From positions 911,501 to 975,500 of the forward strand of contig NZ_CP089538.1 in the NCBI RefSeq assembly GCF_021233055.1: a stretch of DNA of 64,000 bases, given 5' to 3'. This document shows positions 14,401 to 16,342 of this stretch, one piece after another. Position 1 is the first letter of the stretch, and each line of letters starts with the position of its first letter. The position numbers and the translations under genes were made by a program. A model generated the notes under the pieces. It was given only the letters and a program-made list of their open reading frames with translations. It was not told where the DNA came from and searched no databases. This DNA comes from Spirosoma oryzicola. GTDB lineage: Bacteria; Bacteroidota; Bacteroidia; Cytophagales; Spirosomataceae.

Positions 14401-16308
14401 TTAGTAATCGACTTCGAGGTTTAGGGCTTTTCTTAGTTCGTGGAGAGCTGGGTTTTTCTCGGCCATATAATTAAATTTATCCAGCGAACTGTAAATCATC
14501 TTCTTGACTTCCTGCACCTGCACCGTGTGTTCCAACTGAATCTGGCTGTTCTGTAGCTCTCTGCGTAGATAACCTAGTAGGTCTGGTCTCAACTCCGTCA
14601 GGAATCCGACTTGCAGCGTGTTGTCCAGCGTTAGGCAAATCGTCGTACCGTTGAGCGTCAGCTCCCGGTTAAGAACCACCTGCTCCGACGTAATGTCGTT
14701 CTGCTGTCGGCGGAGTCGGGCAAACGTCGCCCAGGCATCCTGCAATTCTTCCAGCGTAAACGATTTGTCGGGCCGGGCCGGAGCCGTTACGACAGTTTCT
14801 TCTGGCGTAGCAGCCGAAGCCTGAGCCGGACCGCTTGTGAGCGCAACCGTAGAACGAAGCCGACTGGTAGCCGGTCGTGTTGGTGGCGCTATCTGTGGCT
14901 TCGCTGGTGCAGTAACCGGTGGGGCCGCTACTGCAGTGGCTACCTCGCTTTTCGCGCTGGCATAACCGTTTCCGTTGGGCTCGGCGGGAGCCTTTCCGTT
15001 TGTGCCGTTCGTTGGTAGTCGGTAGTCATGGACCGGCTCGCTCGTGATCGGTTGCGATTCGGTTAGCTGACTGCCGTTGTCAGACGAGGGCTGGGGAGGG
15101 CTGGGTATCGGTTCGGCGTTTTTTTTTTCGGAAGATGCCTGTTCAGCGATCCCATTGTCGGCGGTTTGCGCACCATTGAGCGGTAACTCAGGCAACGCTT
15201 CCCAGTTGAGCAGATTCCGAAGATTAGCCAGCTTCATCAGCCACAGTTCGGTGTGTAACCGCTGATCTTTGGCTTGCTTGTAGTTCATGTCGCATTGCCC
15301 ACCCAGACTAAGCGCCGATAGCAGGAACGACATGGGAGCCCGCGCTGACTGGTCGAGGTACTGCCGCCGTACGCTTTCCGTTACCTGCAACAGCTGAACC
15401 GTCGCGTTGTCTTTACAAACCAGCAGATCGCGGAAGTGACGACACAGACCAACGACGAACTGGTGGCCATCAAAACCCTTGCGCAGAATTTCGTCTACCG
15501 TCAGTAAGCTCTGGGGCAGATTGCCCGCCAGCAACAGATCCGTCAGTTTGAAGTAATAATCGTAATCGAGGATGTGCAGGTTGTCCAGCACCTCCTTATA
15601 GCGAATCACCCGATCCGCCGAGAACGTCACGTTCAGGTCGAACATCGACAGCGCATCCCGAAGGCCGCCGTCCGCTTTTTGGGCGATCAGGTCGAGCGCT
15701 TCGCTTTCGGCGGTGATGCTTTCTTTCTGCGCAATCCTTGCCAGATGGTCCGCGATATGCTGCGGCTGAATCCGGTTGAAGTCGAAAATCTGACAGCGGG
15801 ATAAAATCGTCGGCAGAATTTTGTGCTTCTCGGTCGTCGCCAGAATAAAAATTGCGTAGGAGGGCGGTTCTTCCAGCGTTTTCAGAAAGGCGTTGAAAGC
15901 TGCCGACGAAAGCATGTGCACCTCGTCAATGATGTAAATCTTGTACTTACCCGACTGGGGCGGATACCGAACCTGATCGATCAGGTTCCGAATATCTTCG
16001 ACGGAGTTGTTCGAAGCCGCATCCAGTTCATGAATATTAAAGGAAGCACTTTGGTTGAAGCTCACGCACGACTCACAAGTGTCGCAGGCTTCGCCCTCGG
16101 CAGTTAAATGTTGACAGTTGATTGTTTTCGCCAGAATGCGGGCGCAGGTGGTCTTGCCAACCCCACGCGGTCCGCAAAACAGAAATGCCGACGCTAAGTG
16201 GTTCGTCTTGATGGCGTTCTGAAGCGTAGTGGTGATATGCTCCTGGCCGACGACGGTGTCGAAGGTGGCAGGGCGGTACTTGCGGGCCGAGACCACGAAA
16301 TTTTCCAT
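14401..16308 (-). CDS. dnaX: DNA polymerase III subunit tau/gamma
   Basis: The 635-residue protein is the clamp-loader ATPase of the replicase. Domain I-II AAA+ features are present: Walker A GPRGVGKTT (46-54), a zinc-binding set C65, C75, C78, C81, Walker B IYIIDEVHMLS and the sensor region LATTEKHKILPTILSRCQ. A low-complexity Pro/Ala/Thr linker spans roughly residues 380-520, followed by the tau-specific C-terminal domain. The frame can be read 11 codons further upstream to a TTG, but the ATG at 16308 gives the conserved MENFVVSARKYRPATFD. A run of ten A residues at the linker start may produce a truncated gamma form. A promoter abuts the start codon. Confidence 0.95.
   Translation of the reverse strand: MENFVVSARKYRPATFDTVVGQEHITTTLQNAIKTNHLASAFLFCGPRGVGKTTCARILAKTINCQHLTAEGEACDTCESCVSFNQSASFNIHELDAASNNSVEDIRNLIDQVRYPPQSGKYKIYIIDEVHMLSSAAFNAFLKTLEEPPSYAIFILATTEKHKILPTILSRCQIFDFNRIQPQHIADHLARIAQKESITAESEALDLIAQKADGGLRDALSMFDLNVTFSADRVIRYKEVLDNLHILDYDYYFKLTDLLLAGNLPQSLLTVDEILRKGFDGHQFVVGLCRHFRDLLVCKDNATVQLLQVTESVRRQYLDQSARAPMSFLLSALSLGGQCDMNYKQAKDQRLHTELWLMKLANLRNLLNWEALPELPLNGAQTADNGIAEQASSEKKNAEPIPSPPQPSSDNGSQLTESQPITSEPVHDYRLPTNGTNGKAPAEPNGNGYASAKSEVATAVAAPPVTAPAKPQIAPPTRPATSRLRSTVALTSGPAQASAATPEETVVTAPARPDKSFTLEELQDAWATFARLRRQQNDITSEQVVLNRELTLNGTTICLTLDNTLQVGFLTELRPDLLGYLRRELQNSQIQLEHTVQVQEVKKMIYSSLDKFNYMAEKNPALHELRKALNLEVDY
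15119..15128 (-). other. A10 slippage tract inside dnaX
   Basis: On the coding strand the sequence GAA AAA AAA AAC holds ten consecutive A residues at codons 394-397, directly after domain III. A -1 shift reads 12 new codons starting with CGC and then meets TGA. A +1 shift also meets a stop within 20 codons. Either would give a protein of about 410 residues, the size of a gamma subunit. Thermus dnaX uses an A9 tract by transcript slippage and E. coli dnaX uses ribosomal -1 shifting. That this tract works is inference. Confidence 0.6.
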
Positions 16309-16311
16309 ACT

Positions 16312-16342
16312 CAAAGTTAACAAGGCGGGGGCGGATTTCAAA
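16312..16342 (-). promoter_or_regulatory. dnaX promoter placed for a leaderless or very short-leader mRNA
   Basis: On the minus strand TTTG (16339-16342), a 19-base spacer and TAACTTTG (16312-16319) match the Bacteroidota promoter. The last G is only 4 bases upstream of the dnaX ATG at 16308. Transcription would start at or next to the start codon. Confidence 0.5.

Follow-up and report, generated by a model that had tools for sequence, protein, structure and literature searches.

The dnaX gene and its A10 run

The window, by which is meant the whole 64-kb stretch of DNA that was analyzed, contains a dnaX gene (DNA polymerase III gamma/tau) at positions 14401 to 16308 on the minus strand. The likely start is the ATG at 16308 (MENF...), and the open reading frame (ORF) could be extended to a TTG at 16341. 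The zero frame encodes tau, a protein of 635 amino acids, which scored 938 bits against NCBIfam NF011531 (cut-off, 685) over residues 1 to 634. The Pfam clamp-loader domains fall inside residues 21 to 367, with residue 367 being the end of domain III. A run of exactly ten A's is present at 15119 to 15128 on the minus strand, where codons 394 to 397 read GAA AAA AAA AAC; on that strand the run is bordered by a G (15129) and a C (15118). The initial annotation, which had placed ten A's at these codons just after the clamp-loader domains, was confirmed on both points. The rest of the gene (14401 to 15118, minus strand) encodes a variable linker and a C-terminal domain that are absent from gamma, and a tau C-terminal profile made from in-frame relatives matched the window gene in the zero frame.

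In the −1 frame, which would be read from transcripts with 11 A's, a TGA at 15080 to 15082 on the minus strand lies 12 codons past the run, giving a predicted product of 409 amino acids with the tail KRRTDTQPSPALV after EKK. In the +1 frame (A9 transcripts), a TAA at 15063 to 15065, also on the minus strand, lies 17 codons past the run-ending codon, and the predicted tail of the 414-amino-acid product after EKK is TPNRYPALPSPRLTTAVS. The annotation had been correct in proposing 12 new codons and a TGA after a −1 shift, a stop within 20 codons after a +1 shift and two products of about 410 residues. Both predicted products retain domains I to III and lose the tau C terminus, making them gamma-sized relative to the 635-amino-acid tau.

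Taking the sequence of the site together with the comparisons described below, we consider it probable that the A10 run serves as a programmed site of transcriptional slippage, yielding gamma in addition to tau. A short gamma made by slippage had been the central proposal of the initial annotation, and comparison of relatives supports it. According to this model, RNA polymerase would slip on the ten A's, producing a pool of dnaX mRNAs with A9, A10, A11 and other tracts. Transcripts with 10 A's (or 10 ± 3) would specify the 635-amino-acid tau, and the others would be read in the −1 or +1 frame, reach a stop codon 12 or 17 codons on and specify a gamma of 409 or 414 amino acids, which would be expected to enter the clamp loader.

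Retention of the run in the genus and the phylum

Within the 64-kb window alone, words of nine A's were unremarkable, with 4 matches being detected against a mean of 2.88 and with 33 of 100 shuffles having at least 4. The whole 7.33-Mb genome contained five A or T runs of at least 10, as against the roughly 71 (34.8 + 36.7) that a first-order Markov model built on the window predicts. Two of the five fall in no ORF of more than 100 codons, one is an A16 in an ORF just ahead of the apparent gene start, and dnaX is the sole sense-strand A run among the five that was read as lying inside a gene. A T10 run is found in the sense strand of another gene of this genome (C9:26380-26389; L063), presumably a histidine-kinase-like one, at the motif NPHFFFN; this run could slip too.

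Searches of 36 same-genus genomes, including the window's own, detected a strong DnaX match in 35, all of which were fetched (30 + 5); the draft G026 (80% complete) had only a weak, paralogue-like match. An exact A10 run was present in 35/35 of these dnaX genes, the window's own included, ruling out an assembly artefact as its source. By the annotation's own criterion, synonymous interruptions of the run in closely related genes would have counted against the proposal, and no broken run was found among these 35 loci. When the region was aligned across the genus (829 columns), the A10 run was the only invariant stretch of at least 6 columns (it spans 9 columns, since its last bases were split by the aligner), and pairwise identity was 40% across the 60 columns before the run and 56% across the 60 after it. 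This retention in 35/35 loci within a hypervariable linker, combined with the genome-wide shortage of such runs, indicates that the dnaX A10 is not due to chance. One member of the genus (L307, from G032) has a whole A10 and a frame that is broken some 90 to 100 codons past the run, by error or decay.

The second feature for which conservation had been proposed as a check, the out-of-frame stops, behaved differently from the run. Stop distances in the genus ranged from 4 to 18 codons in the −1 frame and from 6 to 27 codons in the +1 frame, and 7 of 30 loci (23%) had both stops within 12 codons, versus 22% of linker controls. As the stops are no closer than in the controls, the genus alone does not decide the mechanism.

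A wider sample of 270 Bacteroidota dnaX loci was assembled from the genus (30), family (40), order (80), class (20), named Bacteroidia (80, a sample consisting of the best 80 of 592 candidates) and other classes of the phylum (20). At the family, order, class and phylum levels, genomes were sampled automatically, and the loci to be fetched were chosen by hand. The interval examined for runs extended from 8 codons ahead of the domain III end to 60 codons past it; runs of 7 to 8 and longer runs further downstream (e.g., L166, L176 and L194) were scored as no run. A run of at least 9 A's, mostly 10, was present at the site in 225 of the 270 loci: 30/30 in the genus, 28/40 in the family, 71/80 in the order, 20/20 in the class, 66/80 among the named Bacteroidia (best 80 of 592) and 10/20 in the other classes. 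The 225 runs comprised 190 of A10, 20 of A9, 13 of A11 and one each of A12 and A13. Carriers among the best 80 of 592 named candidates included Dyadobacter, Hymenobacter, Rufibacter, Pedobacter, Mucilaginibacter, Sphingobacterium, Chitinophaga, Aquimarina and Muricauda.

No run was found in 45 of the 270 loci, including 14 of the 80 named loci (best 80 of 592) and 10 of the 20 other-class loci. A Bacteroides sp., a Prevotellaceae and two Bacteroidaceae records were among the run-less named loci in the best 80 of 592. Five loci from Prevotellaceae, Bacteroides, Bacteroidaceae and one other Bacteroidales (L199, L207, L210, L222 and L246) have no A run and have tau in frame; in these, gamma may have been lost or may be made otherwise. 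A further locus, L102 (G099, C802; a 71%-complete draft), has a zero-frame TAA directly before its A10 (GCT TAA AAA AAA AAC), which may reflect either an erroneous base or another arrangement.

Probable slippage and possible ribosomal frameshifting at the dnaX site

The frame of tau was assigned in the 225 run loci with the tau C-terminal profile. The C terminus was in frame in 143 and lay in the −1 frame in another 70; five loci (L111 and L294, of the same genus, and L173, L286 and L303) had it in the +1 frame, and in 7 it was not found. For 74 of the 75 out-of-frame loci, the exception being L225, one shift at the run opens a path to the tau C terminus and the zero frame stops within 10 codons. 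The runs occupied all three codon phases (24, 113 and 88 in phases 0, 1 and 2, respectively). Stops were scored in 36 other genera, each represented by one hand-picked locus: the −1 frame was closed within 12 codons in 36/36 and the +1 frame in 34/36, with controls of 0.49 and 0.51 (P values, which ignore relatedness, of 5e-12 and 2e-8). Of the 113 in-frame run loci from beyond the genus, 107 had both stops within 12 codons, compared to 21 to 44% of controls depending on the group. Among the 70 loci with tau in the −1 frame, 68 likewise had the third frame closed within 12 codons.

An alternative is that gamma is generated by a −1 ribosomal frameshift on the run (at A_AAA_AAA or A_AAA_AAC), as in dnaX of E. 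coli, with polymerase slippage being minor or absent. Both heptamers are in frame within the window run, as possible ribosomal shift sites, and A_AAA_AAG is absent. The predominance of −1 over +1 tau frames (70 versus 5) and the nearer position of the −1 stops are counterpoints to slippage; this −1 bias would be explained by slippage that mostly adds one A and also by a ribosomal contribution. The window site, however, has none of the Shine-Dalgarno (SD)-like 4-mers GGAG, GAGG, AGGA, AGGG and GGGA at −20 to −6 and no hairpin in the 60 nucleotides after the run (−5.9 kcal/mol; z, +1.2). Across the A-run loci, mean downstream hairpin z-scores ranged from −0.15 to −0.70 by group, with 10 to 15% below −2, and SD-like words were present upstream in 0 to 23% by group versus 9 to 12% of controls; where the proportion was 23%, controls gave 10 to 11%. 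Hence, there was no consistent stimulator at these loci, although stimulators were not nil, and ribosomal aid at some of them is possible. A ribosomal shift is also at odds with retention of a length of 10, rather than 7, in 190 of the 225 runs, and the five loci with tau in the +1 frame could not be produced by a −1 shift. Polymerase slippage is, therefore, favoured over an E. coli-type shift, given the three phases, the close stops in both directions, the cases of +1 tau and the paucity of SD and hairpin stimulators. We regard the ribosomal alternative as unlikely, and a pure −1 shift on the run was rejected because of the +1 stops, the phases and the +1 tau loci.

A ribosomal route also drew support from the family itself, in part of which genuine ribosomal-type signals occupy the same site. 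Twelve of the 40 family loci lacked a run, and 11 of these (genera g12, g5, g36, g2 and g28) had G_GGA_AAG or A_AAA_AAG at the same place. Locus L098 (g6, G040), also of the family, has neither an A run nor a recognized heptamer. Beyond the 40 family loci, 15 were added on the grounds that their genera had earlier proved to be of the ribosomal type, along with 5 genus loci (60 in all). The sequence GGAGGG was located exactly 9 nucleotides before the heptamer in 26/26 ribosomal-type loci (11 + 15). G_GGA_AAG was carried by L084 to L089, L316 and L317 (g36), L092 and L318 to L321 (g2) and L097 (g28). The E. coli-like A_AAA_AAG, with a −1 stop one codon on, was carried by L083, L100, L309 to L315, L322 and L323 (g12) and L091 (g5). 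Stem-loops were present downstream in g12 and g2 loci (z, −3.2 for L083 and −2.1 for L100, with stem-loops being drawn for others) and in L088 (z, −5.0). Seven of the ten ribosomal-type loci with z-scores had none below −2. In g36, gamma is in the zero frame in seven loci, ending GGA AAG TAG, and L089 alone has tau in frame; the tau C terminus of the seven was in the −1 frame in six, with L087 being unreadable because the contig ends.

These sites differ from the A runs in two respects that bear on mechanism. The heptamers were in phase at 19/19 ribosomal-type sites, and the −1 stop lay within 6 codons in 19/19 whereas the +1 stop lay within 12 codons in only 7/19 (control, 0.62), as against the 34 of 36 genera with close +1 stops behind A runs. 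A search of Rfam with L001, L083, L084, L092, L100 and L318, at E values of up to 1, produced two matches far under the gathering scores, neither of them a dnaX element. Ribosomal protein bS21 failed to separate the two kinds of genome, being present in 18/18 of those chosen (6 A-run, 11 ribosomal-type and 1 with neither). Bacteroidia ribosomes, which are said to disregard SD sequences, are reported to sequester the anti-SD sequence (PMC9976891), and the SD-driven prfB shift is described as inefficient in Flavobacterium johnsoniae (PMC12421855). These two observations make slippage a sensible default and the SD-bearing dnaX sites a puzzle.

The frame of tau, other explanations and known systems

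The distribution of arrangements was examined on single-gene trees, so that the numbers of changes are approximate. A FastTree phylogeny of 263 loci (without L307 and with the genus thinned by omission of L005 to L030; 14 of the 263 rows had no arrangement state) required a minimum of 37 changes with three states and 35 with two. A quick IQ-TREE phylogeny of 115 loci of the order, without L112, L164, L165, L166, L171, L172, L176 and rows lacking an arrangement, required 19 (three-state) or 18 (two-state) changes, as compared to 35 to 42 two-state changes in 20 label shuffles. Differences within genera provided tree-independent examples, with A9/A10 in g46 and g18, A10/A11 in g66 and a change at the G_GGA_AAG site in g36. 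We lean towards the view that Bacteroidia dnaX has long been frame-indifferent, slippage on A10 being so efficient that the encoded frame has flipped repeatedly (a minimum of 18 switches between the in-frame and out-of-frame states across the 115 loci of the order), with tau in frame, in −1 or sometimes in +1. Run length and the non-tau stops would have been held throughout and part of the family would have a ribosomal-type signal instead, such that the output was conserved while mechanism and encoding were exchanged.

It is very improbable that tau alone is made and that the A10 run is a tolerated, functionless accident or is held because the EKKN peptide matters. EKK is present in all genus loci compared, and the chance-like stop distances of the genus would fit such an explanation. 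Lysine codons within the run, however, were 60 AAA to 1 AAG in 30 genus loci, compared to 501 to 385 in the remainder of those genes, so that the synonymous AAG is shunned, and L024 has replaced Asn with Lys (AAG) and kept its A10 intact. Outside the genus, both peptide and frame vary while the A run persists. Retention for the peptide was rejected on the basis of this codon bias and of the peptide change outside the genus. Runs of this length are, moreover, depleted in the genome; the only other A or T runs of at least 7 in the 30 genus ORFs were four A7 and one A8. The presence of tau out of frame behind the same run in 70 + 5 of the 225 loci is a further difficulty for a tau-only product. 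The avoidance of AAG, the L024 substitution and the invariance of the run indicate that it is the homopolymer, rather than the peptide, that looks to be under selection.

A phase-variable switch, in which replication slippage toggles tau on and off within the population, would account for the A9/A10 and A10/A11 differences within single genera but is scarcely credible given the exact length of 10 in 35/35 genus loci, the presumably essential nature of dnaX as the core clamp loader gene and the open path to the tau C terminus after one shift in 74 of 75 out-of-frame loci, which indicates that the out-of-frame state is maintained and not decaying.

Transcriptional slippage as the source of gamma is established in Thermus thermophilus, where it is reported to occur on an A9 run and to produce a 1:1 ratio (PMC1088944). 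The window gene resembles that described there in having a homopolymeric A tract within dnaX, a zero frame that specifies tau, stop codons closing the two other frames and gamma as the shifted product. It differs in having A10 rather than A9 and in belonging to another phylum, and slippage and the 1:1 ratio were demonstrated in Thermus whereas the window gene is known from its sequence. Antonov et al. (2013) describe 17 dnaX genes of a two-ORF type, distributed over 12 genera and including nine with A10, for which slippage was proposed; three Chlorobi with A9, A8 and A7 are named, and all 17 genes are of the −1 type (PMC3711429). This two-ORF architecture is the same as that of the 70 run loci with tau in the −1 frame. 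A zero frame ending after the run, with the tau C terminus in another frame, was found in 74 related run loci, while the window gene has tau in frame and hence would be missed by a split-gene search; the five +1 loci also depart from the type described.

The E. coli dnaX gene undergoes a −1 ribosomal frameshift at A_AAA_AAG with an upstream SD sequence and a downstream hairpin (PMC3711429 and PMC5009743). The window shares with it the gene, the place and gamma as the shifted product but has neither the SD sequence nor the hairpin; it is the g12, g5, g36, g2 and g28 sites that resemble this system. The frameshifted dnaX of Blochmannia likewise contains a poly-A tract with proposed transcriptional slippage (PMC3017870). 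That tract differs from the window's in its position, past the tau/gamma site and within the part specific to tau, where slippage may correct a frameshift instead of producing gamma.

Slippage-type dnaX is thus already known from Thermus and from Antonov et al. (2013), and the window site adds an instance. In a literature search that was short on subscription journals and covered main texts rather than supplements (among them the species list of Antonov et al.), we found no report of class-wide retention of A10, of the +1 arrangement, of the number of toggles or of the exchange for an E. coli-like signal. If the proposal is true, many Bacteroidota dnaX genes are likely to be read as encoding gamma only or tau only though both are made. 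Sequestration of the anti-SD sequence (PMC9976891) and the weak prfB shift of F. johnsoniae (PMC12421855), as reported in those studies, would provide a testable reason for slippage being the usual route. The importance of gamma has long been debated in studies of replication, and a class that guards the gamma signal while changing frames and mechanism would be comparative evidence that gamma matters.
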